Assembly (NCBI RefSeq): GCF_025060375.1
Contig: NZ_JANXCG010000056.1
Span: 1 to 60,136, forward strand
Direction of reading: 5' to 3'
Length of the DNA stretch: 60,136 nucleotides
Source: Meiothermus sp.
GTDB lineage: Bacteria; Deinococcota; Deinococci; Deinococcales; Thermaceae
Below, piece by piece: positions 4,616 to 51,462 of this stretch. A program made the translations under genes and the position numbers. The notes beneath the pieces are model-generated. The model was given only the letters and a program-made list of their open reading frames with translations. It did not search any database and was not told the DNA's origin. Positions within the stretch are counted from its first letter, which is position 1. Each line of letters begins with the position of its first letter.

Positions 4616-5778
4616 ATGCCCAGGCTCCCCACCCGCTGCTTCTCCACCGGAAGCCCAGTCAGCCCGTTGAAGGCGTCTACCTCCTCCAAGAAGCGGTGGA
4701 ACAGGTAAAGCGAGTCGTGGGGGCCAGGACAGGCTTCGGGGTGGTACTGGACGCTGAAGACCGGATAGCGCAGGTGGGCCATACCCTCCAGCGTCCCGTC
4801 GTTGAGGTTGATGTGGGTAGGCCTGAAGTCCTTGAGGGTGTCAGGGTCTACCGCGTAGCCGTGGTTTTGGCTGGTGATTTCAATCTTGCCGGTGAGCAGG
4901 TTCTTGACCGGGTGGTTGGCCCCCCGGTGGCCGAACTTGAGCTTAAAGGTGCGCCCCCCTGCCGCCAGGCCCAGCAGCTGGTGCCCCAGGCAGATGCCAA
5001 AGGTAGGCAGAAGGCCCATCAGCTTCCAGAGGGTCTCGTGGGCGTAGCGGGGCATGCTAGGGTCGCCGGGTCCGTTGGAGACGAAGAGGCCGTGGGGCTC
5101 TAGGGCCATAATCTGCGCCGGGCCGGTCTTGCCCGGCACCACGATCAGCTCAAACCCCAGCTCGGCCATGTAGCGCATCTGGGCGTGCTTGATGCCGAAG
5201 TCCATCACCACCACCCGGCGGGAGCCTTTGAAGGTGGGGAACTGGTAGGGTAGCGGGGTGGAGACCTCCGGCGTCATGTCCCGCCCGTCAATGTCGGTCC
5301 AGCGGCGCGCCTCTTCCTGCAGGGCCGAGAGGTCTTCTGGGGTAAAGCGATGGTCAGGTGAACCAAAGTAGCTGGCATGGGCAATCACCCCCTTGAGCAC
5401 ACCCCCCTCGCGAATTTTGCGCACCAGGGCCCGGGTATCTATGCCCTCCAGCCCCACCACACCGGTGTCCTGAAGGAACGCCTCCAGGCTCTGCTGAGCC
5501 CGGGGGCCCGCAGCATAGCGGCTGAACTCCCGGGCCACAAAGCCTCGCACCCAGGGCCGGTTGCTCTCCATGTCAAAGACGTTCACCCCATAGTTGCCCT
5601 GGTGGGGGTAGGTCATCACCACAATCTGCCCGTTGTAGCTAGGGTCGGTCAGGATTTCCTGATAACCGGTCTGGGCGGTGTTGAAGACCACCTCCCCCAC
5701 ACTCTTGCCCCGGTGCCCAAAGGCGTAGCCGTGGTAGACGGTCCCGTCCTCCAGCACCAACACTGCGCGCTCTCTCAT
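4612..5778 (-). CDS. carA: Carbamoyl-phosphate synthase small subunit
   Basis: Glutaminase subunit (388 aa from ATG 5778) that supplies ammonia to CarB for carbamoyl phosphate, the shared precursor of arginine and pyrimidines. The N-terminal CPSase_sm_chain domain starts ALVLEDG-like (residues 4-11). The C-terminal class-I glutamine amidotransferase domain holds the nucleophile in [11 protein letters not shown] and the His/Glu pair in [12 protein letters not shown] 12 bases further upstream is also in frame; ATG 5778 is preferred because GGGGGATGAG sits directly before it. It is the last gene of the argG-argH-NAGS-carA run. The large subunit carB is not in the window. Confidence 0.93.
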
Positions 5779-5796
5779 CTCATCCCCCACTCCATC

Positions 5797-6351
5797 CTAC
5801 GGGCCACTGGTGGGCCTTTTGTAAGCCTCTTCCGGGCTCAGGATCTTGGTCACCCCAATCTCACGGCAGTTGTCGTAAAAGGGGCAGGCGCTGCACTCGG
5901 CGTAGACCTTGGGCGGCAGGGCTTCGCGGGTGGTCACGTGGTAGCCCAGGCTGGTGAAGAACCGAACCTGCAGCGTCCAGGCGAAGATCTGAGGAATGCC
6001 CAGGTCCTTGGCCTCCCGCTCGGCGGCCAGGGCAATCCAGCGCCCCAAACCCTGCCCCTGCCGCTCAGGGTGGATGGCCAGCCCCCGCACCTCAGCGATG
6101 TCGTGCCAAAGGATGTGCAGGGCCCCGCTCCCAACGATGTGGCCGTCCTCGTCCTCAAGTACGAAGAAGTCGCGCAGGTTCTCGTAGAGGTGGTTGTGGC
6201 TGCGCACCAGCATCAGGCCCCGTTCGGCCCAGTATCGGATGAGCTGGTAAATCTGGTCCACATCCTTTATGCGGGCCTTGCGCAGCTCCACGTCGGCCTC
6301 GCGGCGCACCTTGGGCAAAGGGGTGGTGGCCAGTTCAACGGGGTCGCTCAT
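5797..6351 (-). CDS. argA: N-acetylglutamate synthase, short GNAT type
   Basis: Acetyl-CoA-dependent GNAT enzyme of 184 aa. Inference from context and fold: it acetylates glutamate in the first step of arginine synthesis, like the stand-alone short synthases and the GNAT domain fused to ArgH in some bacteria. The GNAT core is visible from residue 22 ([15 protein letters not shown]) through the acetyl-CoA loop ([13 protein letters not shown]). The C-terminus has a Cys cluster C-x2-C-x5-C ([11 protein letters not shown]) typical of this short synthase group. It overlaps argH by 4 bases (ATGA), a strong sign of functional coupling. A general protein acetyltransferase is the alternative but is less likely here. 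Confidence 0.78.
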
Positions 6352-7742
6352 GCCTCTACCTCAATCTTGGCCTGGCTAAGGGCCTGCCGCACCGCTTCAG
6401 GCGCGGTACCCCCGTAGCTTTTTCGGCGGTGGATGGCCGTCTCCAAACGGGTGAGGGATAGGGCCTCCTCGCCGAACAAAGGATGGAAGCCTTGCAGCTC
6501 AGCGAGGCTCAGGTCGCGCAGCTCCTTGCCCGACTCAGCGCAGTGGCGCACAACGCGCCCTACCACATGGTGGGCCTCCCGGAAGGGCACCCCCCGCAGG
6601 GCCAGGTAGTCGGCCAGTTCGGTAGCCAGGGAAAAGCCCGACTCGGCGGCTCGAGCCATGGCTTCGGGGTTCCAGCGGAGGCCCGGCAACATGGCCGCAA
6701 GCAGCCGGACCGAGGCCCGGTAGGTGTCCACCGCATCGAAGAGGGGTTCCTTGTCCTCCTGGAGGTCTTTGTTGTAGGCCAGGGGAAGCCCCTTGGTCAG
6801 GGTGGCCAGGGCCACGAAACTCCCCAGCACCCGCCCCACCTTGGCCCGGATCAGCTCCGCGTGGTCGGCGTTCTTCTTCTGGGGCATGATGGAGGAGCCG
6901 GTGGAGAAGGCATCCGGCAGGGTTACAAAGCCGAATTCAAAGGTGGAGTAGAGGACTATCTCCTCGGCCAGCCGCGAGAGGTGGACCTGACCAATGGTCA
7001 AAGCGGCCAGAGCTTCTAGGACGAAGTCGCGCGAGGCCACCGCATCCAGGGAGTTGCGCATGGGCCGGTCAAAACCCAGCGCCTGGGCCGTGTAGTGGCG
7101 GTCTATGGGAAAGCCCGTTCCCGCGAGCGCCGCCGCTCCCAAAGGGGACTCGTTGAGCCGCCTTAGCGCATCCTGGATACGTCCTGTGTCGCGGGTCAGC
7201 ATCTCGTAGTAGGCCAAGAACCAGTGGGAAAGGAGGACCGGCATGGCCCTCTGCAGGTGGGTATAGCCGGGCAGGACGAGGGGAGGCTCGAGGTACCGCT
7301 CAGCCTCCTCCACCAGCACCCTGCGCAAGGTCCTGAGTTCCTCCAGCAAGGCGGTGAGCTCACCCCGCAACCACAACCGCAGGTCAGTGGCCACCTGGTC
7401 GTTGCGGCTGCGAGCGGTGTGCAGCTTGCCCCCCACCGGGCCCACCAGCTCGGTGAGGCGGGCCTCTATGTTCATGTGCACGTCCTCGAGCTCCTCCCGC
7501 CAGGGAAAGCGGTCCTCCAGAATTTCCTGGCGCACCCTCAGAAGCCCCTGGCGAATCTGCTCGGCCTCCTCGGGGCTCAGGATGCCCTGGCGGGCCAGCA
7601 TGGCCGCATGGGCCAGCGAGCCCTCAATGTCCACCAGGGCGAGCCGCTGGTCGAAGCTCCAGGAGGCGTTGAACTCCTGCGCAATCTTGCTGGGCGCCTC
7701 GCTGAAGCGCCCTCCCCAGGTCCTCTGCAGCTTCCCGCTCAA
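6348..7742 (-). CDS. argH: Argininosuccinate lyase
   Basis: Homotetrameric fumarase/aspartase-superfamily enzyme (464 aa) that splits argininosuccinate into arginine and fumarate. The family signature [10 protein letters not shown], which carries the catalytic Ser loop, is intact. The N-terminus [19 protein letters not shown] and the HLQRAMP segment also match. Translation starts at TTG 7742, preceded by GGAGGGG at a spacing of three bases. It follows argG by 8 bases and overlaps the synthase gene downstream. Confidence 0.95.
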
Positions 7743-37799: not shown

Positions 37800-38155
37800 G
37801 CCCCCACCGGGCCTCAAAGCCATGCGCGGTGCCTCTTGGCGCACTGGCCGGGGAGAAGCGGCCACCGCCACAGTTCAAAGCGGGTTCACCGGCCCAACCG
37901 AGGCCTCGCTGCTCAAGTCGTGTTACCTGCTAAATCCCCCTTTGCAGGCAAAAAGCGCTTCCTGGGGGCTTCAAGCGAGGGAAAATCGGGGCCATACACA
38001 GCCGGGGGCTGGGGCGCTAGGTGGGGCCTTTCCAGGGGCTAGATGAAGCCTTCTCCTCGGCCCAGCCCACAGGGGCGTTACATCTCGTTACGCAGTCTTT
38101 TGCCCTAAAAAAGGGGATTTTTTCTCTATTGGGAAGACCTATGGGAGAAAAAGGG
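37800..38155. other. Intergenic region before the surface operon
   Basis: 356 bp with no convincing gene. A pair CCCT/AGGG with A-rich loop then ATTTTTT (38103-38122) could be a weak terminator. Direct repeats CGTTAC occur at 38076-38081 and 38085-38090. The promoter of the surface operon should lie between about 38080 and 38150, but I could not settle on a -35/-10 pair. Confidence 0.35.
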
Positions 38156-38263: not shown

Positions 38264-38746
38264 ATGCGTCTATACCTATTGGCTCTCGCCCTAGCGCTTT
38301 TGGGAAGCGCCCTAGCCCAAAGGGAGGTTCGGCTCGACCTCAAGGCCTTCCGGGTAGTCTCCATAGACCAGGGAGGCCGGGTGGTGGAGCGGCTCGAGCC
38401 TGCCCTGGAGGTCCGGCCCGGGCAGCTCATTGAATACCAGCTCAGCGCTCAAAACACCACAGACAAACCCCTCCGCCAGGTGGCCCTGGTCATCCCGGTC
38501 CCCAAGGAGGCCGTCTTCCAGGGGGCCTTTCCCCTCGAGGGAGCCCGGCTAGAGTTCAGCTACGATGGCGGGCGCACCTACGGCCAGCCCCCGCTCAAGC
38601 GCAAGGTCCGGATGGTGGAGGGCGGCCGGGAGGTAGAGAAAGAGGTAGAGGTAAAGCCCGAAGAGTATACCCACGCCCGCTGGACCCTGCCCGAGCTGGG
38701 CGCCCAGCAAACCGTTTTCCTTAGGCTCCGTGCCGTTGTTCGTTAG
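38264..38746 (+). CDS. Exported DUF11-like single-domain protein
   Basis: 160 aa. Signal peptide MRLYLLALALALLGSALAQ, then one beta-sandwich of the DUF11/conserved-repeat kind: a strand with RPGQLIEYQLSAQNTTDKPLRQVALVIPVP, then an edge strand FLRLRAVVR at the C-terminus. A charged loop (KRKVRMVEGGREVEKEVEVKPEE) is unusual for the fold. GGAGGAAGG precedes the ATG. First gene of a five-gene operon of exported proteins; 8 bases separate it from the next. It may be a minor or capping subunit; this is inference. Confidence 0.75.
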   Translation: MRLYLLALALALLGSALAQREVRLDLKAFRVVSIDQGGRVVERLEPALEVRPGQLIEYQLSAQNTTDKPLRQVALVIPVPKEAVFQGAFPLEGARLEFSYDGGRTYGQPPLKRKVRMVEGGREVEKEVEVKPEEYTHARWTLPELGAQQTVFLRLRAVVR

Positions 38747-38754
38747 GAGGAAAG

Positions 38755-41481
38755 ATGCGAAGAATCAAGCTCAAAGGACCCCTAGCCATCCTCGTCGCGC
38801 TGGCCCTGATTGGAATTGCCCTGGCCCAGCCGACCCCAGCAGGCACCAGCATCAGCAACCAAGCCTCGGCTCGCTACGTTGACTCGGCCGGCCAGCCCCG
38901 CACCACCACCTCCAACCAGGTGGTCACGGTGGTGCAGCAGGTCTACAGCCTCACCATCACCCCCAACGGTTCCTCAGAGGCCCTCCCAGGCCAGACCCGC
39001 TCGGCCCTGCCCGGCGCTACGGTCTACTTCGCCTACACGGTGAGCAATACCGGCAACGGCACGGATACCATCGCGCTCACCACCCCCCAGGGCACCGCCG
39101 ACAACTTCAACCTCACGGGGGTCACGGTCTACCGGGACGACAACTGCAACGGGGCCCTGGACGCCGGTGAAACGGCGGTCTCGAGCCTCACCCTGAGCCA
39201 CCAGGGCACCCCAAGCAGCTCGGCCTGCGTGGTGGTGGCGGCCACCATCCCCGCCGGGACCCCCGCCGGTCAGTACGCCAACCTAAACCTGGTGGGGACC
39301 TCCTCGGGCGGCCCCAGCGACAGCGACAACTGGGCGCGCGCAAACGTTACCGCCGCCGCAGCCCTCACCGCCAACAAGTCGGCCAGCCCCAGCGGCCCTG
39401 TGACCCCCGGGACCACCATCACCTACACCATCTTCGGGCAGAACACCGGGGGCAGTGCGGCGAGCGGGGTGAGCGTTCCCGGGCTTAGCGGCAGCGGTAT
39501 CCTGATTCGGGACATCATCCCAGCCGGCCTGGAGGTAAACAGCCTGCCCACCGGCAGCGCGGGTGCTGGAACCGTGCAGATCGTCTACTCCGCCGACGGC
39601 ACCAACTGGGCGCCCCTGACCGCCAGCAACCTGCCCCTCGTCGGCAACGGCTCTGTGGCGGTCGGGATGTTCATCAGCGGCAGCGGGGCCTTCTTCCCGC
39701 AGGGCGCCTCCTACACCTTCAGCTTCCAGGCCCGGGTGCCCCTGAGCGCTCCGGCTGGAACAGCCTACACCAACGCCGCCACCGTTCGGTTCAACGACGG
39801 GACCCAGCAACAGGTCGTCACCACCAACGGCACCACCAACCCGGTGGCTGCGAGCCCCAACGTGGCTGTGGGGCCCTACGGCTACCCCACCGGGGGCGCC
39901 ACCGGAAGCTACACCGCGGGGAGCTACACCGTAGGGCGGAGCGGGGATACCCAGAGCATTACCTCCGCCTATAGCGGCAGCGTTGTGATTTTCCGCCACA
40001 CCCTGCGCAACACCGGCAACGCGGCGGACAGCTTCACCCTGAGCCACTCGGGCGCCCCTTCGGGCTGGGTCTGCCAGTTCCTGGCCGACGATCTGACCAC
40101 CCCCCTCTCCGGCCCAGTGGGCCCGGTGAGCGCAGGCGGGGACTACAGCTTCGCCCTGCGGTGCGCCATCCCCGCTGGCTACACGGCCACCACCGCCCAG
40201 ACGATCACCGTCACCGCCACCAGCCAGGCCGGACCGACCCAGTCGGACAGCACCACGAACCTGGTCCAGGCGGTGGTCTCTGGCTACGCCGTAGACCTGG
40301 CCCGCCTTGGCAGCGGTGGCGACGGCGACCCATCCAACGACAACCCCCCTTCTGCGAGCGCCAACCCGGGCACCCAGGTGAACTTCCCCATCGAGGTGGT
40401 CAACACCGGGAACAATCCCGACAGCTTCAACCTGAGCGCTACCCTCCCGTCGGGATGGAGCGCCCTTTTCTATCCCGATGCGAACTGCGACGGGGTCATG
40501 GACACCCCCACCCCGAGCCCCATCACCAACACAGGGGTGATCAACCCGGGTGGGGCCAACCGGCGCTGCTACATTGCGGTGGTGCAAATACCGGGCGGCA
40601 CTGCCCCCGGTGCCAACCCCATAAGCCTTCGGGTGGACAGCGCCACCGACACCGACCCCGGCACCCCAGGCATCCAACCTGCCTCCTCGGACACAGTATC
40701 CACCACCGTCAATGTGAATCTGGTGGTTGGCCTCGCGCTTGACCCCGACCGCTCCGGCACGGTCACCAGCCCGGGCACCATCACCTACACCCATAACCTC
40801 ACCAACACCGGAAACGCCAATGCCACGGTGAGCATCCCGGCGGTGACGAGCGCCTACGGCTGGACCTACGAACTCTCCACCGACGGCAGCACCTGGAGCG
40901 CTTCCCTCTCCGGCATCTCGGTTCCCGCAGGGGGCAGCGTGCCCCTGTACGTGCGGGTTCAGGTCCCTGGGGGCCAGCCCATTGGCCGTAGCGAGACAGC
41001 AACCCTCACCGCCAACGCCACCTACCCGAGCGGCACCGCGAGCGACACCGCGACGGTCACCACCACGATTGTGGGTGGCGAGCTCAACCTCACCAAGTCG
41101 GCAGTGAGCTACGCAGGGGCCACCACCACGGTGCGCCACCCGAGCGGGGCTCAGGCCTACCCCGGTGACCAGATTGTCTACACCGTGGTGGCGAGCAACA
41201 TCGGCACCGGCAGCCTCACCAACGTTCGGGTATCCGACCCGCTGCCCGCCCACACGACCTTCGTGAGCGCCTCGGCCACCGCAAGCGGTTTTGGCAGTGG
41301 GGCACAGGTGCTCTACTCCACGAACGGGACCACCTGGAGCACCACCCCACCGACCTCCCTGCCCACAGGGGGCATCCTCTACGTGGGCGTGGACACGGAC
41401 GGAAACGGCACCATTGACGGGGGCGATGTCATGCCTGCCGGGGCCAGCATCACCCTGAGCCTGCGGGTGCAGGTGCAGTAA
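38755..41481 (+). CDS. Large DUF11-repeat surface protein
   Basis: 908 aa. Signal peptide (residues 1-24) and then about six beta-sandwich repeats rich in Thr, Ser, Gly and Asn. Each contains a DUF11-type YTVSNTGNGTD / HTLRNTGNAAD / VEVVNTGNNPD segment. Loops of the form DDNCNGALD, DANCDGVMD and DTDGNGTIDGGD look like calcium sites. There are few Cys, no LPXTG motif, no S-layer-homology domain and no membrane anchor at the C-terminus, which ends in a plain strand (LSLRVQVQ). It should be exported and held at the surface by partner proteins. GGAGG lies before the ATG. Thr/Asn-rich codon content differs from the neighbours, as expected for such proteins. Confidence 0.78.
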   Translation: MRRIKLKGPLAILVALALIGIALAQPTPAGTSISNQASARYVDSAGQPRTTTSNQVVTVVQQVYSLTITPNGSSEALPGQTRSALPGATVYFAYTVSNTGNGTDTIALTTPQGTADNFNLTGVTVYRDDNCNGALDAGETAVSSLTLSHQGTPSSSACVVVAATIPAGTPAGQYANLNLVGTSSGGPSDSDNWARANVTAAAALTANKSASPSGPVTPGTTITYTIFGQNTGGSAASGVSVPGLSGSGILIRDIIPAGLEVNSLPTGSAGAGTVQIVYSADGTNWAPLTASNLPLVGNGSVAVGMFISGSGAFFPQGASYTFSFQARVPLSAPAGTAYTNAATVRFNDGTQQQVVTTNGTTNPVAASPNVAVGPYGYPTGGATGSYTAGSYTVGRSGDTQSITSAYSGSVVIFRHTLRNTGNAADSFTLSHSGAPSGWVCQFLADDLTTPLSGPVGPVSAGGDYSFALRCAIPAGYTATTAQTITVTATSQAGPTQSDSTTNLVQAVVSGYAVDLARLGSGGDGDPSNDNPPSASANPGTQVNFPIEVVNTGNNPDSFNLSATLPSGWSALFYPDANCDGVMDTPTPSPITNTGVINPGGANRRCYIAVVQIPGGTAPGANPISLRVDSATDTDPGTPGIQPASSDTVSTTVNVNLVVGLALDPDRSGTVTSPGTITYTHNLTNTGNANATVSIPAVTSAYGWTYELSTDGSTWSASLSGISVPAGGSVPLYVRVQVPGGQPIGRSETATLTANATYPSGTASDTATVTTTIVGGELNLTKSAVSYAGATTTVRHPSGAQAYPGDQIVYTVVASNIGTGSLTNVRVSDPLPAHTTFVSASATASGFGSGAQVLYSTNGTTWSTTPPTSLPTGGILYVGVDTDGNGTIDGGDVMPAGASITLSLRVQVQ

Positions 41482-41492
41482 CGGAGGCAACC

Positions 41493-42617
41493 ATGAGGGG
41501 GGTCTGCGCACTCATTCGGGATGTCGTCAGACCCCCCCTTTTCCTTTTCATCTTTGCGCTGAGCCCCGCCCTAGCTCAGATGGTTATCCGCAACCAGGCC
41601 ACGGCCCAGGCGGACGGGCAAACCCGCCCCTCCAATGTCGTGGAAACCCGGCTGGACCTCCCTCTCCTCTTCTCCAAGGGGGTGGACCGCAAGGAGGCCA
41701 CCGTGGGGGACCGCTTGGTCTATACCCTGACCCTGGTGAACCCGGGGCAGGCCGCGCTGCTCGTGGACCTGGAGGACCAGCTTCCGACAGGGACCCAATA
41801 CGTTCCCGGCACCGCCCAGCCAGTGGTGGCCGCGCATGGGGAGGGGCGGCTGCGCTGGGCCGGCCTCCGGCTGGACCCAGGGGGCCGGCTGGTCCTCACC
41901 TATGCGTTGCGCGTCCTCCCTGGGGCCCCTGAGCGGCTGGTCAACACCGCCACCGCTACCGCCACTCGGGAGGGCCCAGGAGACCAGGTCAACGCAGTCC
42001 TCTCGGCCACGGCATTCACGCGGGTAGGCGCGGGTCCTTTGGCCCCACCGAACGCCCTACTGGGCCGGGTCTATCTGGACACCGATGGGGACGGCCGGTA
42101 CACCCCGGGAGTGGACATCCCCCTGCCCGGGGCTCGAGTGGTGCTCGGCGACGGGCTGCAAACCCTCACCGATGCGGAGGGCCGCTACGGCTTCCGCAAC
42201 CTGGCCGGGGGGGTCTGGACGGTCACCCTTGATCCCGCCTCGGCCCCCTTCCCTCCCCTCCCTCACCCCGAGGCCTTGGGCGACGGCTACCGGCACCGGG
42301 TACGGGTGGAGGGGCTCACCGTAAGCGACTTCCCCCTGAGGGCCCCGAGCGGCGTCGTCAGCGTGGCCCGCGAGACGGTCCTCCAGTTTGGCCCCCTGAA
42401 GGTGCACAAGCGGCTCCTCGAGCTGCCCCAGGGGGTGCGGGTGGTCCTGGTCCTGCGGAGCGACGAGGCGCTTTCCGACCTGACGCTCACCGACCCGCTG
42501 CCCGGTGGGGGGGAGCGGCGCTTCCACTTTGAGGTCTTCCAGGGCGAGCAGACCCTCACCTACGACCTGCCGGGCGGATTCCTGACCGACCCCCAGGTGC
42601 GCTGGAGGTACCCGTGA
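41493..42617 (+). CDS. Exported DUF11 plus SdrD B-like protein
   Basis: 374 aa. A long signal region (residues 1-28, ending SPALAQ) precedes a DUF11 domain (about 55-170, YTLTLVNPGQAALLVDLEDQLPTGTQYVPG). Next is an SdrD B/Cna-B-like domain (about 190-290). It has a calcium-type loop YLDTDGDGRYTPGVD, then GARVVLGDG, TDAEGRYGFRNL and a VTLDP strand. A final strand-rich segment follows. B-type domains act as rigid calcium-bound spacers in Gram-positive adhesins. The gene overlaps the next by 4 bases (GTGA), so the two products are probably made in fixed ratio. Confidence 0.75.
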   Translation: MRGVCALIRDVVRPPLFLFIFALSPALAQMVIRNQATAQADGQTRPSNVVETRLDLPLLFSKGVDRKEATVGDRLVYTLTLVNPGQAALLVDLEDQLPTGTQYVPGTAQPVVAAHGEGRLRWAGLRLDPGGRLVLTYALRVLPGAPERLVNTATATATREGPGDQVNAVLSATAFTRVGAGPLAPPNALLGRVYLDTDGDGRYTPGVDIPLPGARVVLGDGLQTLTDAEGRYGFRNLAGGVWTVTLDPASAPFPPLPHPEALGDGYRHRVRVEGLTVSDFPLRAPSGVVSVARETVLQFGPLKVHKRLLELPQGVRVVLVLRSDEALSDLTLTDPLPGGGERRFHFEVFQGEQTLTYDLPGGFLTDPQVRWRYP

Positions 42618-45600
42618 GAAGCCTTGGCCTCCTCTTCCTTCTCCTCGCGGGAGTGGCCCTCGCTCAACCCCGCACCGACCTCAAGGGCATCGTGCCGGGG
42701 GACGCGCTGGGCTGGGAGGTGCGGGACTTGCGAGCCAGCGTGGTGGTAGGCAAGCCCACCCTCCTAAACCTGCAGATCTACTCGCCTGGTTTTGACCCGA
42801 ACGACTACCGCAGGGGCCTCCGGGGCGGGGAGGAACTGGGCGACGAGCGCTACGACGGGGGACGGGGGGAACTGGTGGCCGAGTTCACCCTTGCTCGAGG
42901 CGAGCAGATTGTGGTCCAGAAGACCTACGGGGTGGAGCCCCACCGCTGGGACCTTTTCTTTAGGGGACCCCTGGAGCCCGGGGTCTACACCCTCTCGGCC
43001 CGCTTTAGCGGCCGGGGCAAGAACGCCTTCCTCTACCGCATCCAGACCCGGGAACCCGACGCGGCTGAGCTCCTGGTTGAACCCGGCCTACAGCTCTACG
43101 ACGTGCGCGGGAGGGGCTGGGTGGAGCCCCTGCACCTCCTGGTGGAAAGGGAGGCCCTGCCCGTGCGGGTAGGCTTCTACGATGAGGACGGCCCCAGGGA
43201 GATGGAGGCCCGGGTGCGGCTGCCGGATGGGCGCGCAGTGCCCCGCCCGGTCTCCGGCGACCGAGGCTGGGCTCACTACGAGATTCGCCAACCGGGGTTC
43301 TACACCTTTGGCTTCCGCCGCGCCCCGGGCGCAACCCAGCACTCCAACACCATCGGTGTCCGGCTGGACGCCTGCGTGGAGGTTGAGCGGGAGGCCTTCC
43401 GGGTGGTGGCCCCACGCCCTGTCTCGGTGAGGGTGGTGGACACCGAAGGCCGGCCCCTGAGAGCCCCTACCGCGGTTGAGGGGGGCAGTACCCGCACCGT
43501 TCGTCTGGCCTCCTTGCCCGAGGGGTACCGGCTGTTCCAGCTCGAGGCGCGGGGCGGTGAGCACCTTGGGGGTGGCGTCCTCCGCTTCGGCTGTGCAGGA
43601 GGTGAGGCCCGCTTCGTGCTGGAGAAGCACCCCGAAGCTACCCGGCCCCCGGTCGCGGAACCCGAGCCCCCAGCCACGCTGGAGCTTGGGGCCGCTCTGA
43701 TTACCCCCAGCGGGGAGGAACCCTTCCCCCTGAGCGTGCAGGTGGGCGAGCGTCGGCTTGGGCCTGGCCGCTATGAGCTACCTCCTGGAAGCTATACCTT
43801 GATGCCTGAGCTAGAAGGCGCCCGCGTCGAGGGGCCCTCCTCGGTCAGGCTGGAAAGTGGTGAGGTTAGGCGGATAATCTTCAGGGTTTACCCGGAAGTA
43901 CAGCTCAGCCTGGAGGCCAGCCGCACCACCCTGCGGGTCGGTGAGGAGGCCACCCTGACGGCCCGGGTCCGCACGGCCTTCCCGCATACCCTGCCCGCTG
44001 AGATAGAAATGGAGCTGCCCCCCTGCCTGGAGGCCCTGGGGGCGACCCGCCTGACCGCCCCCGTGGCCGGGGGCCGCGACGCTGTGCTTGCCCTGCCGGT
44101 GCGGGCTGCCTGCCGGGGGGAGCTCGAGGTGGAGGCCCTCCTGGCCCCCTGGGGGCAGAGGGCCAGGACCCGGCTGCACCTCGTCCAACCCGCCGCCTTC
44201 ACCCTGGAGAAGGAGGCCCTTAGCCCCACCGCGGCCGTGGGGGAGGAGGTGGTCTGGCGCCTGCGGGTGAGGAACACCGGCGACGAGGCTGGGTCCGTGC
44301 GGGTGCAGGACAGCCTTGCCGCTGGACTGCAGGGCCTGCCGCTCGACCAGAACATAAAACTGCTGCCCGGCGAGGAGCGCACCCTCGAGGTGCGCACCCG
44401 CGTGACCTCCGAGGCCCCTCCCACCCTTACCAACACCGCCCGGCTGCTTGACGAGCAGGGCCAAACCCTGGTTGAGGTCCGCGCTGGAGTGCGAACCCTC
44501 CGAGCGGTGGCCGGACTCTCCCGCTCGCTGGACAAGAGGGTGGTGGTCCCCGGCGAGGAAGTGGAGGTGCGGCTGGTGGTGCGCAACACCGGCGAAGCCC
44601 CCCTGCGCTACACCCTGGAAGACGCCTACCCCGAGTGGCTGGAGGTGGACGCCCCACCCCGATTCAGCGGCGAGCTGGCCCCCGGCGGAAGCGCTGTCCA
44701 CACCTACAGGGCTCGGGTGCGCTTTGGCGCCCCAGCCGAAGGGGCCTTCCAAGCCAGGCTCCAGTCCAATGGCGGCGACCTGAGCGCACCGGATCGCCTC
44801 CAGCGCACCCTGGTGCACCTGGAAAAGGCCGTGGAGCCCGCACGGGTGCTGGTGGGCGGCGAGGCCACCTTCACCCTTCGGGTAGGCAACCCCACCGACC
44901 ACCCGATAACCCTCAGCCTGCTGGAAGCCCCAGGCGAGGGGTTAGCGCTGCGGGGGAATCGCCCCTCGAGCCTCACCTTAGAGCCCGGGGAGACCCGCGA
45001 GGTGCGCTTTGAGGCCAAAGCGGAGCAGGCCGGTGCTCTGGAAAACGGGGCCACCGCTTTTGTGAACGGGACCCCAGCCTCCTTCCCGGCCAGGGCCACC
45101 CTGACCGCCCTCCCCCCCCTGGCACCGACGCGGGTCTCTACCGTGCGGCTGGAGTTCAGGGTAAAAGGGACGGGGGACCGCCTTCTCCTCACCCATCGTC
45201 CACCCGAGGGGGGCCAGTTTGAGCCCGGCTCGGCCCGGCTGGACGGCCGGCCCCTGGAAGACCCCCGCGTGGACGGGGAGGGCCGGCTCTACTTCGAGCT
45301 GCCCTACCAGGCCCAGGGGGTGGTCTCCTACGAGCTGCGCCACCGCGAGGCCCTGCCAGCTCTGGAGGCGCCCACCCTAACCCTGCGCATGGGCGACCGG
45401 GAGGTGTACCTGCAGGGCCAGCAAACCTTTGCCAGCCTCCAAAGGGCCCGGCCCACGGAGGTCAGGCTGCGCGAGGGCTTCATCCAAGAGCCCCTGCCCG
45501 GCACGGTCTTCCGGGTAGACAGGACCCGGGTGGTGCTGCAAACCCCCTACGGCCTCGAGACCCGCCTGACTCTAAACGGCCAGCCGATAGACACCAAGAA

Positions 45601-48085
45601 CCTGGGCGAGGCCACCTACGACGAAGAAAACGGCCGGCAGACCCTCCAGTTCTATGGCGTACCCCTCCAGGAAGGGCGCAACCTGATTGAGGTGGAGACC
45701 CCGGTAGGCTCCGACCGGGTGGAGGTCTTCCTGGTAGGCCGTCCGGTCCGGCTGGAGGTGCGCCCTCTGCGGCTTTTGGCTGACGGCCGCACCCCTTTGG
45801 AGCTAGAGGTACGGGCCCTAGACGCCCTAGGCCTGACCGCGGGCTTTGGCCCGGTCACGGTGGAAACGAACGTTGAGCCCCTCGAGCCCGACGCCTTCCC
45901 GCTCCTGTCGGGCTACCAGGTGCCCCTCAAGGACGGGCAGGCCCTCCTGCGGCTCCGGCCTACCGCCGCCCCCACCCCTCTGCGCCTGCGGCTGACCTTC
46001 GAAGGGCTTTCAGCCCAGGCCGAGTTCTTCGCCCTGGGCCGCCAGGAGGGGCTGTGGCAGCTTCAGGGCAGCGCGGGGGTGCGGTTGGGCGAGAGCATCC
46101 AGGCGTTTGGAATGGGGCGCGGCTACCTAGAGGCCCCCCTGGAGGGCGGCGTCCTGCGGGCCGCCCTGGATGGCTCGCTGCGCTTTGAGGAGGGCCGGCC
46201 CCAGGTGGAAAGCGGACTGCGGGGGCTCCCTGACCCCACCGGGCGCTTCCCCCTCACGGGCGCAGGGAGCGAGGCCCAAAGGCCCCTGCCGTCCAACGAT
46301 CCGGTGGCCCTGCGCTATGACCGGGAAGGCTTCAGCCTGGGCTACTTTGCTGACCAGCTGAGCGTGTTTGGCCTGAGCGAACTGCCCCAGGGCACCGCCC
46401 TGCGCCTCGAGACCCGCCAGGACCTAGCCCTGCAAGGCTTTGCGGGCTGGCTGCCGGTGGGCAGCAAAACCGACCTGATCGTGCCCGATGGCACCCGCTT
46501 CTACAAGCTGAGCGGGCCCGCCGAACCAGGCAGCGAGCAGGTGGTGCTGCTGGTGGGGGCTAGCGAAAGGCGGCTGGAGCGCCTAAAGGACTACGTGCTG
46601 GACGCTTCAAGCGGCATTCTGACCCTCTCCGAACCGCTTTGGCCCAGTAGCTCCGACTTCCAGCCGGTGCGGCTGCGGGTGGTGTATGCCCCGCTGGGCG
46701 GCGCCCGCGAACTGGGCTACGGGGCCGGGGCGCGCTGGCGGGTGGGCGACTTTAGCATTGGGGCAGGGGCCGCCTACCTGCCCGGCAACGGCTGGCGCTA
46801 CGGGGCCGAAGCCGCCTACCAGCTTCCTGGGTTTGGCCTGCGGGCCACCTACAGCCGGGGCAGCGCCGAGCGGTTTGGCCTCGAGCTCTCCGGCAAGAAT
46901 GGCCCCCTGGAGTCCACCGCCCACCTGAGCTACGGGGGCAAGCTCCAGGGCCAGGCCCAGGTGGCCTACCGCCTGAGCGAAGCCGACCGGGTCTCGCTCG
47001 AGCACCAGACCGGCGAGACCAACCGCACCGGCCTGCTCTACACCCGCCGCCTGAACCCCGCCTTCTCGGTGGGGGGCGGGCTGGGTTACACCTGGGAAAC
47101 CGCCACCCTGCTGGGCCTGGGGCGGCTGGGCTTTAGCAGCGGGCCCCTGAACACGGAACTCACCCACGCCCAGCCCTTCAGCCTGACCCAGAGCGCCGCC
47201 ACCCGCCTGCGGAGCAGCTATGCCTTCGACGCCAACCTGAGCGCCGAGGCCGACCTGACCCAGACCTGGGGCCTGGGCCTCTCGGGGAGCCTGGGCCTCA
47301 AGCAAAAACTGGGCAGCGCCAACCTGGCCCTGGCCTACCAGCTGCCCGGCGCGGCGGGAGAGGGCAACCGGGCCCGCTTTGGCCTGGAAGCGCCCCTGCC
47401 CCTTACCGATGGCTGGAGCCTGAATGCCAGCGCAGGCTACGAGCGCAGCCTCTCCACCGGCAGCGACCAGCTGGCCTTTGGCCTGGCCCTGCGCTACCAG
47501 GCCGAGCAGTTCAGCGCCACCCTGGGGGCCGAGACCGCCTGGGCCGCCGGCCAGCCCAAGCTGGTGTGGCGGGCCGGGGCCACCGGTCAGCTCGATGCCC
47601 AGCAGACCCTCTCGCTGGACGCCAACTACCAGATATTGCCCGTCCTCGAGGGTCGCGTTACCCTGGCCTACGCGCTGCGCGGGCGCGACGCCTCGCTCCT
47701 GAGCTACCACCGGCTGAATAGCGGGGGTGAGCGGGTGCTCGAGGGCGCCCTGGCTGCCAGCTATCACCCCGGCCTGAGCTTCCAGCTCCGGCCCAGCCTG
47801 GCCTACCGCCTCAAACTCGACGACCCCACCGGCCACACCTACGGGCTGGGCCTGGGCGGCAACTACTACCTCACCGACTGGCTGGGCCTGGGGGCCGCCG
47901 TCTACTACCAGCTCCAGCCCGGAACCCAGAGCAGCGCCACAGCCTGGTCGCTCGAAGCCAGCTTCCGCCTGGTGGAGGGCCTTTGGCTCAACGCAGGCTA
48001 CACCCTGGGCGGCTTTGTGGGCCCGACCCCCGAAACCGCGCCCGGCTTCTACCTCAGGTTCGACTTCCTGGGAGGCTCTCGGTGA
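42614..48085 (+). CDS. Giant surface protein with C-terminal outer-membrane barrel
   Basis: 1823 aa. Signal peptide (1-18). Residues 19-430 are beta-sandwich and carboxypeptidase-like domains. Residues about 435-880 hold four DUF11-type repeats (LRVRNTGDEAGSV, LVVRNTGEAPLRY and others). Residues 880-1150 are further beta domains. From about 1160 to the end the sequence becomes a run of short amphipathic Gly/Tyr/Leu/Ala strands broken by turns, ending in FYLRFDFLGGSR, typical of an outer-membrane beta-barrel. The barrel, some 650 residues, is larger than that of classical autotransporters. I infer an outer-membrane platform that displays or anchors the DUF11 proteins encoded beside it. It starts at GTG 42614. 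Confidence 0.78.
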   Translation: MRSLGLLFLLLAGVALAQPRTDLKGIVPGDALGWEVRDLRASVVVGKPTLLNLQIYSPGFDPNDYRRGLRGGEELGDERYDGGRGELVAEFTLARGEQIVVQKTYGVEPHRWDLFFRGPLEPGVYTLSARFSGRGKNAFLYRIQTREPDAAELLVEPGLQLYDVRGRGWVEPLHLLVEREALPVRVGFYDEDGPREMEARVRLPDGRAVPRPVSGDRGWAHYEIRQPGFYTFGFRRAPGATQHSNTIGVRLDACVEVEREAFRVVAPRPVSVRVVDTEGRPLRAPTAVEGGSTRTVRLASLPEGYRLFQLEARGGEHLGGGVLRFGCAGGEARFVLEKHPEATRPPVAEPEPPATLELGAALITPSGEEPFPLSVQVGERRLGPGRYELPPGSYTLMPELEGARVEGPSSVRLESGEVRRIIFRVYPEVQLSLEASRTTLRVGEEATLTARVRTAFPHTLPAEIEMELPPCLEALGATRLTAPVAGGRDAVLALPVRAACRGELEVEALLAPWGQRARTRLHLVQPAAFTLEKEALSPTAAVGEEVVWRLRVRNTGDEAGSVRVQDSLAAGLQGLPLDQNIKLLPGEERTLEVRTRVTSEAPPTLTNTARLLDEQGQTLVEVRAGVRTLRAVAGLSRSLDKRVVVPGEEVEVRLVVRNTGEAPLRYTLEDAYPEWLEVDAPPRFSGELAPGGSAVHTYRARVRFGAPAEGAFQARLQSNGGDLSAPDRLQRTLVHLEKAVEPARVLVGGEATFTLRVGNPTDHPITLSLLEAPGEGLALRGNRPSSLTLEPGETREVRFEAKAEQAGALENGATAFVNGTPASFPARATLTALPPLAPTRVSTVRLEFRVKGTGDRLLLTHRPPEGGQFEPGSARLDGRPLEDPRVDGEGRLYFELPYQAQGVVSYELRHREALPALEAPTLTLRMGDREVYLQGQQTFASLQRARPTEVRLREGFIQEPLPGTVFRVDRTRVVLQTPYGLETRLTLNGQPIDTKNLGEATYDEENGRQTLQFYGVPLQEGRNLIEVETPVGSDRVEVFLVGRPVRLEVRPLRLLADGRTPLELEVRALDALGLTAGFGPVTVETNVEPLEPDAFPLLSGYQVPLKDGQALLRLRPTAAPTPLRLRLTFEGLSAQAEFFALGRQEGLWQLQGSAGVRLGESIQAFGMGRGYLEAPLEGGVLRAALDGSLRFEEGRPQVESGLRGLPDPTGRFPLTGAGSEAQRPLPSNDPVALRYDREGFSLGYFADQLSVFGLSELPQGTALRLETRQDLALQGFAGWLPVGSKTDLIVPDGTRFYKLSGPAEPGSEQVVLLVGASERRLERLKDYVLDASSGILTLSEPLWPSSSDFQPVRLRVVYAPLGGARELGYGAGARWRVGDFSIGAGAAYLPGNGWRYGAEAAYQLPGFGLRATYSRGSAERFGLELSGKNGPLESTAHLSYGGKLQGQAQVAYRLSEADRVSLEHQTGETNRTGLLYTRRLNPAFSVGGGLGYTWETATLLGLGRLGFSSGPLNTELTHAQPFSLTQSAATRLRSSYAFDANLSAEADLTQTWGLGLSGSLGLKQKLGSANLALAYQLPGAAGEGNRARFGLEAPLPLTDGWSLNASAGYERSLSTGSDQLAFGLALRYQAEQFSATLGAETAWAAGQPKLVWRAGATGQLDAQQTLSLDANYQILPVLEGRVTLAYALRGRDASLLSYHRLNSGGERVLEGALAASYHPGLSFQLRPSLAYRLKLDDPTGHTYGLGLGGNYYLTDWLGLGAAVYYQLQPGTQSSATAWSLEASFRLVEGLWLNAGYTLGGFVGPTPETAPGFYLRFDFLGGSR

Positions 48086-51000
48086 AACGGACGACCCCCC
48101 ACTGGAACGAGCTGCGCCTGTACACCGCAAGGCTCCTGCTCCTCCCCCTCCTGCTCGCGCTGAGCCTGGCCCAGGCCCAGGTGGTGCGGAGCTTCACCAA
48201 CGTGTTCAACAGCAACACCACTGGCAACATCGTAGTGATCGGCAATACCCTGATGACCTGCGGCACCAGCACCGTCACCCCCAGCAACCCCCCCACCTGC
48301 AACACCAGCGACACCAACCTGAGCAACAACCGTTCGATGGTGTTGGTTGACTTCGACGGCGACAGCTCCACCTCCAACTCCTCCCGCGCCACCCTGAGCC
48401 TGCCAAGCGGGGCCCAGGTGCTCTTCGCCGGGCTCTACTGGGGTGCCCGCGCCGACCCCAGCAGCACTACCCGCAACCAGATTCACTTCCGCCCACCAGG
48501 AAGCGGCTACCAGACCCTAAACGCCGACTGGCTTGAGACCATCACCACCCAAGGAGCTGCCACCAGCCGCCCCTACGCCGCTTTTCGCGACGTAACCAGC
48601 CTGGTGCAAGCTGCAGGCTCGGGCGACTACTGGGTGGCAAACATCACCGCCCTTACCGGCAACGACAGCCTGGGCTTTTACGCCGGCTGGAGCCTGGTGG
48701 TGGTCTACCAGCACCCCGCCGAGCCCCTCCGTCGCCTGACCGTAGCCCAGGGACTGGCCGTGGTGAGCAGCGGCAACAACGTAAATCAAACCGTCTCCGG
48801 GTTGCTGACCCCTGCGGTGGGCGCCGTGGAGGCCCGGGTAGGTGCGGTAGCCTGGGAGGGCGATGCGGGTATCCCGGGTGACCAGCTCCAAATCCGGCCC
48901 ACGGGCGGTGCCACCTGGGCCAGCCTCTCCGATGGGCAGAACCCGGCCAACAACTTCTTCAACTCCAGCGTGAGCACCCTGGACAGTCGGTTCACCAACA
49001 AACAACCCGACTACGTGAACCAGTTCGCCCTGGATGCCGACGTGGTGCAGTACAACGGCCTGCCCAACGGCACCACCTCGGTAGACCTGCAGTTCACCTC
49101 CACCCAGGACGTCTACTTCCCCCAGGTGCTCACCTTCGCGGTGAACATCTACGCCCCTAACCTCACCACCACCTTCACCAAGACCGTGACCGACCTCAAC
49201 GGGGGCAACGTGCTGGTGGGCGACATCCTGGAGTACACCATCAGCTTCACCAACACCGGAGGGGACGGGGCCACCAACGTGGTGGTGCGCGACCCGATTC
49301 CCCCAGGCACCCAGTACGTGCCGGGAAGCCTCCAGGTGCTCTCCAACGCCACCGGTGCTCCTACCGGTACCTTCACCGACGCCAGCGGCGACGACATCGC
49401 TGAGTACAGCAGTGGGTGCAGCGAGCTATCCGGAAGCCCCGCATGCGTGCGCTTCCGGCTGGGCATCGGAGCAGGGGCCACCCAAGGGGGCCTGATCCTC
49501 CCCAGCCAGGGGGCCAGCGTGCGCTTTAGGGTGCAGGTGCTGCCCAGCGCCGCCGGGACGACCCTGACCAACACTGCCCAGATCAGCTACAACAGCCAGA
49601 CCCTGGGCACAGCCTTCAACCAGAGCGCAAGCGCCACGGCCAGCGCCAGCGTGCCCACCCCCCCGAGCCTGAGCAAGGCCTTCAGCCCCAGCAGCATCCC
49701 TGCAGGCGGCACCAGCACCCTCACCCTTACCCTCACCAACCCCAACACGGCCCCTGCTACCCTTGCTGCCGCCCTGGTGGACAACCTCCCTTCAGGCCTA
49801 GTGGTGGCCAGCCCCGCAGGCGCCACCACCACCTGCCCGGGCGGCTCGGTTGCGGCCAGCCCAGGGAGCAGCACGGTGAGCTTGGGGAGTGGGGCCCAGA
49901 TTCCAGCAGGCGGGTCCTGCACAGTGAGCGTGAACGTGACGGGCAGTACCCCCGGCAGCTACACCAACACCCTGCCCGCCGGAGCCCTCCAGACCAACCA
50001 GGGCAACAACACCACCGCAGCCAGCGCCACCCTGAACGTCCTGGGAACCAGCCTTTCGGGCCGAATCTACGCCGACCAACAGCCCAACGGCACCCTCGAG
50101 CCCAGCGAGGGCTGGAGCAGCGGACCTACCGTGTACGTGAACCTGGTACAGAGCGGCTCGGTAGTGCAGTCAGTAGCGGTAGGCCCGGGCAGCGGCACCT
50201 ATACCTTCAACGCTGTCCCCCCCGGTAGCTACACCCTGGTGGTGGCCACCAGCCCCACAGCCACCACCCCCACAGCCCCCGCAGGATGGCTTTTTGTCAA
50301 CCCAGCGGGCACCCGGAACGTCAACGTGGGGACGACCCCCATCGCCAACCAAGACTTTGGCCTCTACCACGGCTCACGCCTGCAGGGCCGGGTCTTCTGG
50401 GACGACGGCCTGGGTGGGGGCACCCCTAACGACGCCGTGCAAAACGGGGGCGAGGCCGGGATAGGAGGGGTCCTTGTGGAGGCCACCGATGGGAACCAGT
50501 CGGTGAGGACCACCACCGATGGTGCCGGCCAATTCAGCCTCTACGTACCCCACACCTTTGGTCCCAACCTCACCCTGCGCCACGCCCAAAGCCCGGCCAC
50601 CGGCACCAATGTGGGCGGGGGTGCAGTGGCCCTGGCCGCTACCTACGGCGACCCAAGCGCCCAGGCCCGCACCATCGCGGGCTTTACCCCAGGGCAGGTC
50701 TACAGCGGCTACAACTTCGGCGTGGTGCGGCCCTCCCGCCTCGAGCCCGACCGCTCGGGGCAAGCCACAAGCCCAGGCACCATCACCTACAGCCACCTCT
50801 TCCGGCCGGGTACCCTGGGGAGCGTAAGCCTCGGGGTCACCGGAGGGAGCTTTGGCTACAGGCTGAGGTGGGACGCAAACTGCAACGGCAACTTTGACGC
50901 CTCCGAGGTCTTCGCCCCCCCACCCCTTGTGCTGAACGTGGACGCCACCTGGCCCCGCGAGACCGATGGGAGCCTGCGGGCCTGCGCGGTGGAACTGGAG

Positions 51001-51462
51001 GTACAGGTGCCCGGAGGGGTAGCCTCCGGCACCGTGGACATAGCCCGGCTGGGCCTCAGCCTTACCTGGACGGGCAACCCGAGCGCTGTGGAGGCCAGAG
51101 CACTCCTGGACGCCACCACGGTCCTTCCCTCGGGAGGGCTTTCCCTACGCAAGGAGGTGCGGAACGTGACCCAAGGCACTCCCTTCAGCAGCGCGGGTGG
51201 GGGCCGGCCGGGCGAGGTGCTGGAATACTGCATCAGCTACCAGAACCTGGGCAGTAGCCCCATCACGAGCGTGGTCATCACCGACCCTATCCCCTTCTTC
51301 ACCCTCTACCAGCCAGGTAGCCTCAGGCTCAACGGGAACCCCCTTACGGAGGCGGCAGACGCCGACCCTGGGGAGGTGAGCGGGGGTGTGGTGCGGGTAG
51401 GGGTGGGGAACCTGACCCCCGGCGCGGGAGGCAGCGTCTGCTACCAGGTACAGGTACGGTAA
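48082..51462 (+). CDS. Large DUF11/Cna-B surface adhesin-like protein
   Basis: 1126 aa from GTG 48082, which overlaps the preceding stop by 4 bases and has GGGAGG six bases before it. Signal peptide (to about residue 33, LSLAQAQ). An N-terminal domain of about 330 residues (VLFAGLYWGA, GFYAGWSLVVVYQ) occurs with DUF11 in other surface proteins. Two DUF11 repeats follow (YTISFTNTGGDGATNVVVRDPIP; LTLTNPNTAPATL). Then two Cna-B/SdrB-like domains (GRIYADQQPNG; GRVFWDDGLGGGTPND), a PDRSG-x-x-TSPGTITY domain shared with the 908-aa protein, and a last DUF11 unit. No cell-wall anchor motif. Probable adhesin or structural fibre component. Confidence 0.77.
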   Translation: MKRTTPHWNELRLYTARLLLLPLLLALSLAQAQVVRSFTNVFNSNTTGNIVVIGNTLMTCGTSTVTPSNPPTCNTSDTNLSNNRSMVLVDFDGDSSTSNSSRATLSLPSGAQVLFAGLYWGARADPSSTTRNQIHFRPPGSGYQTLNADWLETITTQGAATSRPYAAFRDVTSLVQAAGSGDYWVANITALTGNDSLGFYAGWSLVVVYQHPAEPLRRLTVAQGLAVVSSGNNVNQTVSGLLTPAVGAVEARVGAVAWEGDAGIPGDQLQIRPTGGATWASLSDGQNPANNFFNSSVSTLDSRFTNKQPDYVNQFALDADVVQYNGLPNGTTSVDLQFTSTQDVYFPQVLTFAVNIYAPNLTTTFTKTVTDLNGGNVLVGDILEYTISFTNTGGDGATNVVVRDPIPPGTQYVPGSLQVLSNATGAPTGTFTDASGDDIAEYSSGCSELSGSPACVRFRLGIGAGATQGGLILPSQGASVRFRVQVLPSAAGTTLTNTAQISYNSQTLGTAFNQSASATASASVPTPPSLSKAFSPSSIPAGGTSTLTLTLTNPNTAPATLAAALVDNLPSGLVVASPAGATTTCPGGSVAASPGSSTVSLGSGAQIPAGGSCTVSVNVTGSTPGSYTNTLPAGALQTNQGNNTTAASATLNVLGTSLSGRIYADQQPNGTLEPSEGWSSGPTVYVNLVQSGSVVQSVAVGPGSGTYTFNAVPPGSYTLVVATSPTATTPTAPAGWLFVNPAGTRNVNVGTTPIANQDFGLYHGSRLQGRVFWDDGLGGGTPNDAVQNGGEAGIGGVLVEATDGNQSVRTTTDGAGQFSLYVPHTFGPNLTLRHAQSPATGTNVGGGAVALAATYGDPSAQARTIAGFTPGQVYSGYNFGVVRPSRLEPDRSGQATSPGTITYSHLFRPGTLGSVSLGVTGGSFGYRLRWDANCNGNFDASEVFAPPPLVLNVDATWPRETDGSLRACAVELEVQVPGGVASGTVDIARLGLSLTWTGNPSAVEARALLDATTVLPSGGLSLRKEVRNVTQGTPFSSAGGGRPGEVLEYCISYQNLGSSPITSVVITDPIPFFTLYQPGSLRLNGNPLTEAADADPGEVSGGVVRVGVGNLTPGAGGSVCYQVQVR

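Follow-up and report, generated by a model that had tools for sequence, protein, structure and literature searches.

A five-gene operon for exported proteins

The window analyzed here is one whole contig of a Meiothermus sp. assembly of 2.39 Mb (GCF_025060375.1, contig NZ_JANXCG010000056.1), 60,136 nucleotides long, and at positions 38264-51462 it carries five co-directional open reading frames (ORFs), here called P1 to P5, which are the subject of this report. All of them, and all of their features described below, lie on the plus strand. P1 (38264-38746) encodes 160 amino acids (aa), signal peptide included, and its ATG at 38264 sits within a longer open frame beginning at 38021. It is followed after 8 bases by P2 (38755-41481, 908 aa), a multidomain DUF11 protein, and then after 11 bases by P3 (41493-42617, 374 aa), an exported protein. 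P4 (42614-48085, 1823 aa) and P5 (48082-51462, 1126 aa) each overlap the preceding gene by 4 bases. P4 is exported and has N-terminal immunoglobulin (Ig)/DUF11 repeats and a predicted C-terminal outer-membrane beta-barrel; P5, likewise exported, has a variable N-terminal domain, DUF11/DUF7933/SdrD_B repeats, and a C-terminal, apparently truncated DUF11 domain that we call an acceptor. Each of the five proteins has a visible signal peptide, and the barrel of P4 is the only membrane region among them. An earlier sequence-only reading had described five exported proteins with these sizes and spacing on one strand, with a single C-terminal barrel as the sole membrane part, and the ORF list bore that description out.

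Every match to PF01345 (DUF11) in the genome falls in the P1-P5 operon, with P2, P3, P4, and P5 above the curated cutoff of 24.6 bits and P1 unmatched. P1 gave no Pfam or NCBIfam match at an E value of ≤0.001, and just weak, unrelated Pfam matches were seen up to an E value of 10. No sigma-70-like promoter was found immediately 5' of P1.

DUF11 domains that appear to be split between proteins

The DUF11 domain, now named CLIPPER, is Ig-like and contains an isopeptide bond between a Lys and an Asn, the latter near the domain end; in the crystal structure, the residues are Lys715, Asp748, and Asn806 (PMC12617251). We built a hidden Markov model (HMM) from internal domains of the P1-P5 proteins only (406 domains, 111 positions), in which these residues fall at K5, D38, and N90. 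The K-to-D spacing of 33 positions is the same as that between Lys715 and Asp748 of the CLIPPER structure (PMC12617251).

By alignment to this profile, the last domain of P2 and of P5 is a DUF11 domain cut at position 80 to 81 of the 111, and P1 shows the same pattern more weakly. Among P2 homologs, 25 of 32 end at HMM positions 78 to 81 with no more than 3 residues left over, and the same is true of 23 of 26 P5 homologs. The P1 C termini reach position 80 to 81 in 10 of 26 cases, the window P1 (within 1 residue) and 9 of the 25 other homologs, and most other P1 alignments end earlier, at an insertion specific to P1. In the window, the P2 acceptor (41083-41478), the C-terminal DUF11 domain, lacks the final hairpin, and the protein ends 1 residue past HMM position 80. 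The P5 acceptor (51139-51459) has the same form and stops exactly at HMM position 81, with 0 residues beyond it.

The predicted mature N termini of P2 and P3 match the piece that the acceptors appear to lack, the isopeptide Asn included. For P2, this match, to HMM positions from about 80 (80/82) to 109, was seen in 28 of 32 homologs. The window P2 donor hairpin (38827-38940) has the mature N terminus QPTPAGTSISNQASARYVDSAGQPRTTTSNQVVTVVQQ, and its invariant Asn35 (codon 38857-38859) is N11 of the mature protein. The mature P3 N termini match the donor part of the HMM in 13 of 33 homologs, and a donor motif is present in 28 of the 33. The window P3 donor hairpin (41577-41654), QMVIRNQATAQADGQTRPSNVVETRL, matches positions 82 to 108 at 4.7 bits and carries Asn34 at 41592-41594. 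A match to the donor part at the N terminus was found in 0 of 85 P1, P4, and P5 proteins and in 1 of 188 other proteins of the same loci. As far as sequence can indicate, the split at HMM position 80/81 leaves an incomplete Ig fold and supplies an N-terminal donor segment, the combination characteristic of chaperone-usher subunits.

The two parts were also joined computationally, an acceptor with a donor of the same genome, and the gain in profile score was compared with the gains from shuffled donors and from other mature N termini. With the P2 donor, the mean gain was 11.6 bits for P1, 5.6 bits for P2, and 10.2 bits for P5, compared with 3.2, -0.8, and 2.5 bits for shuffled donors and 0.7, 0.2, and 1.2 bits for the mature N termini of P1, P4, and P5. 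The P3 donors gave mean gains of 5.9, 2.6, and 5.9 bits with P1, P2, and P5, respectively. Independent Pfam models agree with this result, most clearly for P5. The P5 acceptor rose from 19.0 to 27.8 bits against DUF7619 when joined to the P2 donor (18.3 bits with the P4 control) and from 16.5 to 22.2 bits against DUF11 (16.6 bits with the P4 control).

Conservation of the isopeptide residues

An alignment of 24 P2 sequences shows no variation at the donor Asn or the acceptor Lys and at least 90% conservation of the acceptor Asp; the triad of a complete internal domain does not vary in it either. The window residues are Lys781 (41095-41097) and Asp828 (41236-41238) in the P2 acceptor and Lys1024 (51151-51153) and Asp1068 (51283-51285) in the P5 acceptor. 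Read by HMM position, the acceptor Asp is found in 30 of 31 P2 and 24 of 25 P5 proteins. Outside the alignment the acceptor Lys was read from unaligned ends, and one P2 homolog (locus L065) clearly lacks it. Among internal domains covering all three positions, 192 of 227 have the Lys-Asp-Asn triad, with Glu and Asp variants counted. Acceptors that keep the Lys and Asp without an Asn of their own are what would be expected if the Asn came from another chain. Covalent joints between subunits are an attractive, unproven extension of the donor-hairpin fiber proposed below.

A different explanation is that P2, P3, and P5 are separate stalked DUF11 adhesins or coat proteins that form no polymer. The hairpin would then pack against the first domain of its own chain, the C-terminal domain would be no more than a short Ig domain, and P4 would be an outer-membrane anchor. 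The usual description of DUF11 proteins is as the stalks of fibrillar adhesins (PMC12617251), and an AlphaFold2 (AF2) model of P2, computed from an alignment without plasmid-derived rows, assigns high confidence to the hairpin within the monomer (predicted local distance difference test [pLDDT] of 86 to 93, against a mean of 89.5 for the protein). However, that explanation leaves unexplained the common stop position of P2, P5, and P1, the matching remainder at the start of P2 and P3, and the retention of Lys and Asp in domains without their own Asn, and we regard it as unlikely.

Candidate chain ends and a possible holder of donor hairpins

P2 is a candidate for a repeating fiber subunit on the basis of its N-terminal donor and C-terminal acceptor. 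Foldseek with P2 returned generic strings of Ig domains at low template modeling (TM) scores, and a PDB sequence search with a P2 domain gave chance-level matches only.

P5 has an acceptor and no donor. Its N-terminal domain (48181-49155), with a weak match to DUF3344 below the cutoff, differs between genomes; loci L048 and L055 have an L-type lectin domain there, one found by scanning and the other near-identical to it by eye. An exchangeable N-terminal domain over a conserved acceptor is the arrangement of a tip adhesin, and P5 is our candidate for the tip.

P3 has a donor and no truncated domain. It consists of the N-terminal donor, one DUF11 domain, a carboxypeptidase-regulatory-like domain, and a conserved C terminus, DPQVRWRYP. 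The window P3 is internally shortened, at 374 aa against about 900 aa in nearly all relatives, the difference being internal DUF11 repeats; two other loci (L046 and L044) have partly shortened forms of 517 and 540 aa. In Deinococcus gobiensis, Pacificitalea manganoxidans, and an Acinetobacter haemolyticus plasmid, P3-like and P4-like parts form a single protein, and the fused proteins of all three have a donor-like N terminus. Because of these fusions we place P3 at the outer-membrane barrel, as a candidate base subunit.

The same sequence complementarity would permit closure within one chain. The P2 hairpin might complete its own acceptor to give a ring, or P2, P3, and P5 might form one defined heteromer on P4 and no long fiber, and the low predicted TM score (pTM) of the P2 monomer, 0.44, leaves the arrangement of its domains open. 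An acceptor-only P5 and a donor-only P3 fit a two-ended chain better than rings, and we consider closed assemblies of this kind quite improbable.

P1 is a single DUF11-like domain without the last hairpin and without the isopeptide Asp. At the catalytic position, Asp occurs in 1 of 26 P1 proteins and Ile in 20, and the place of the Lys is taken by Lys, Arg, or another residue. Because P1 resembles an acceptor without the catalytic Asp, it is a candidate for a reversible holder of donor hairpins, that is, a periplasmic chaperone, or for a cap.

The predicted barrel of P4

An AF2 model of P4 residues 945-1823, made from 32 sequences, had a mean pLDDT of 86.5 and a pTM of 0.73 and showed Ig-like domains followed by a long run of mostly amphipathic strands. 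The C terminus of P4 (46052-48082) is therefore predicted to form a very large outer-membrane barrel of about 38 strands, by our count of DSSP strands. P4 residues 1285-1358 (46466-46687), which follow about the seventh predicted barrel strand and form short strands in the model, may be a plug-like insertion. The Pfam matches of P4 are confined to DUF11-type families and a weak match to OMP_b-brl. The best Foldseek matches of the barrel were LptD and the FimD/PapC ushers, at low TM scores; searches of PDB and viral structures returned generic barrels, also at low TM scores, and a PDB sequence search with a P4 profile gave chance-level matches only. If the number of strands is even, both ends of the barrel would be periplasmic, so the base of a fiber could sit in the periplasm and the fiber could pass through the barrel.

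A barrel of this size with a plug-like insertion, and with usher translocation pores among its Foldseek matches, might instead be mainly an export pore, and P2, P3, and P5 might be its released or loosely attached substrates, in the manner of two-partner or type 11 secretion. No match to POTRA, TpsB, DUF560, usher, or SprA families was found, however, and the fusion of the base-like P3 to the barrel in three organisms suggests attachment. A secretion system of this kind appears very improbable.

A proposed surface fiber

The reading that we prefer, with a probability of roughly 0.6, is that the operon encodes a surface fiber built by donor-hairpin complementation. The C-terminal Ig domain of P2, a DUF11 domain, would lack its last two strands, the mature N terminus of P2 would be the missing hairpin, and each P2 would complete the domain of the next. 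P5, with an acceptor only, would stand at one end of the chain as the tip, and P3, with a donor only, at the other end as the base, since P2 alone has both. P4 would hold P3, or the fiber would pass through it, and P1 would transiently hold donor hairpins as a chaperone or cap an end. With Lys and Asp on the acceptor and Asn on the donor, a Lys-Asn bond could form with the help of the Asp, as it does in DUF11 domains, and the joints between subunits may in this way become covalent. Also in favor of this reading, the N-terminal hairpin in the AF2 model of P2 has the strand pattern with which the complete second domain closes. The sequence-only reading had offered a fiber, a coat, or an adhesive layer on the outer membrane. 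Of these, the fiber has the best support, since at the sequence level the ends of P2, P3, P5, and P1 are complementary parts of a single Ig domain.

Several observations weigh against this proposal. The gain from joining P2 to P2 is small in the Pfam DUF11 model (42.9 bits, with the control at 41.0), and across the Pfam models the P2 acceptor gains 2 to 4 bits over the control. The donor signal of P3 is weaker, with the 13 of 33 homologs above 2 bits, and the P3 donor joined to the P2 acceptor, with its mean gain of 2.6 bits, beats all of its shuffles in 10 of 27 cases. A search for fusions of an acceptor to a donor found none, and the AF2 model of the P2 monomer does not reveal the partner of the donor hairpin. 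Intermolecular isopeptide formation is inferred from the conservation of residues. Finally, four Trueperaceae loci (L092, L093, L095, and L096) have a stand-alone P1 homolog without adjoining P2-P4, and P1 may have another role because Trueperaceae-like genomes carry it alone.

Gene linkage and distribution

A search of the order with P4 found matches in 62 of 111 genomes. The distribution is patchy, with 15 of 27 genomes positive in one genus (g4) and 16 of the 17 others in the genus of the window. Genes were mapped in 37 regions taken from P4-positive genomes, and the tblastn map covers 31 loci, in 26 of which P1, P2, P3, and P4 follow one another in this order on one strand. P5 lies behind P4 in 24 of the 26, and three of the five loci without the full order run off the end of a contig. 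Flanking genes vary between genera. Because the order is kept in 26 of 31 loci with differing neighbors, the linkage is not due to chance, and the five genes behave as one unit. In the window, the genes 5' of the operon read as pyrR, pyrB, pyrC, and a lipoprotein gene, and those 3' of it as ygfZ-, cinA-, and thpR-like genes, recA, and an RNase Y-like gene, all named by inspection of ORFs. At two loci (L048 and L049), two-gene insertions on the opposite strand, probably mobile elements, interrupt the operon inside P2 and between P3 and the P4 barrel. Three loci of the same genus (L070, L071, and L072) have a paralogous P3-P4 pair of about 30% identity, the barrel of which ends in FDExxFG like the one from Acinetobacter.

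Among named records, P4 matched two partial contigs, both from Meiothermus bins. In Thermus thermophilus HB8, all five genes are on plasmid pTT27 (TTH_RS10905, 10910, 11750, 10920, and 10925). On pTT27 of T. thermophilus HB27 (L085), a short P3, P4, and a 92-aa remnant of the P5 acceptor are kept and P1 and P2 are gone. The two strains, one with all five genes and the other without P1, P2, and most of P5, offer a ready-made comparison. Related gene sets occur on Deinococcus plasmids. On MP1 of Deinococcus radiodurans R1 (L086), P3 and P4 are each annotated in two pieces, as if frameshifted, and P2 is one frame. Genes for GGDEF/diguanylate cyclase proteins adjoin the operon on several Deinococcus plasmids (L076, L086, and L091), which would fit control of attachment. 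Whether the five genes stay together in relatives had been posed as a check on the sequence-only reading, and they do, both throughout the order and on plasmids of Thermus and Deinococcus.

The distribution beyond the order rests on plasmid records. On cyanobacterial plasmids (Synechococcus NIES-970 and Kovacikia minuta), genes resembling P2, P1, P3, and P4 are accompanied by another large DUF11 gene; the P2-like proteins have donor-like N termini, and both they and the P1-like proteins end in truncated domains. Pacificitalea manganoxidans has P1, P2, and the fused P3-P4. On A. haemolyticus plasmid p4 (L087), the P2-like gene (4954-7157) is in several short ORFs, and the fused P3-P4 and a P5-like gene are each a single frame. 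Thermophiles, the setting in which the gene set had first been placed, are not its only hosts, given the related loci on cyanobacterial and proteobacterial plasmids. The proposed fiber would give a function to proteins of Thermus, Meiothermus, Deinococcus, cyanobacteria, and some Proteobacteria that are annotated as hypothetical or DUF11.

Comparison with known systems

The operon is undescribed as far as the literature searched shows; no published description was found there, with most subscription papers and bioRxiv outside its coverage, consistent with the earlier statement that no named system has this composition. In the same literature, no paper linked DUF11 with donor strands, and the single paper holding both terms uses them separately. 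Membership in the sortase pili was rejected because no LPXTG-type signal is present and the C termini are acceptor domains or DPxVRWRYP; a pilin sortase was not searched for. Membership in two-partner or type 11 secretion was likewise rejected, with POTRA/TpsB and the DUF560 barrel unmatched.

Donor-strand exchange without a classical usher is a feature of type V pili. To our knowledge, the proteins of type V pili and of TasA fibers are unrelated to P1-P5, and we know of no isopeptide triad or dedicated barrel in either. TasA fibers are also reported to use donor-strand exchange without a classical usher (PMC9674648). Archaeal threads, made of Saci_0406 in Sulfolobus, combine donor strand complementation at the N terminus with an isopeptide bond that is proposed to link subunits (PMC9715654). 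Their bond, however, runs from the amino group of the N-terminal Asp24 to Asn57 of the next subunit but one, and the threads are archaeal, have no outer-membrane barrel, and are made of a protein reported to have no Pfam domain (PMC9715654).

The DUF11/CLIPPER adhesins (PMC12617251; 9IFR) and the grappling-hook proteins (GhlA, PMC13319060) share with the operon the domain family, the Lys-Asp-Asn triad, and the Lys-Asp spacing. These proteins are single long chains of complete domains, and the bond in 9IFR is intramolecular, whereas in the operon the domains appear to be split between proteins and several genes would cooperate. Such joints would amount to a natural split isopeptide system from heat-loving organisms, like SpyTag/SpyCatcher but evolved for polymerization.

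The proposed assembly follows the logic of the chaperone-usher pili (type 1 and P), in which the N-terminal extension of one subunit completes the incomplete Ig domain at the C-terminal end of its neighbor. Other shared features would be an acceptor-only tip, a donor-only base, an outer-membrane barrel with a plug-like insertion, and a small periplasmic Ig protein encoded in the operon. The operon differs in that its domains are DUF11 and its putative donor is a hairpin that would bring the isopeptide Asn. The usher barrel has 24 strands, whereas about 38 are predicted for P4, and P1 resembles an acceptor rather than a strand donor. No operon protein matched the PF00577 usher, PapD, or fimbrial Pfam families, and P1 had no PapD match up to an E value of 10 that would point to a PapD/FimC-family chaperone, so membership in this class was rejected. 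We suggest only tentatively that the operon represents a new class of Gram-negative surface fiber with members in at least three phyla. Its subunits would be joined head to tail by split DUF11 domains that self-catalyze an isopeptide bond at each joint, and the product might be a covalent pilus made without sortase or usher. The barrel that would hold this pilus, or through which it would be threaded, ranks among the largest predicted for a single chain in the outer membrane.

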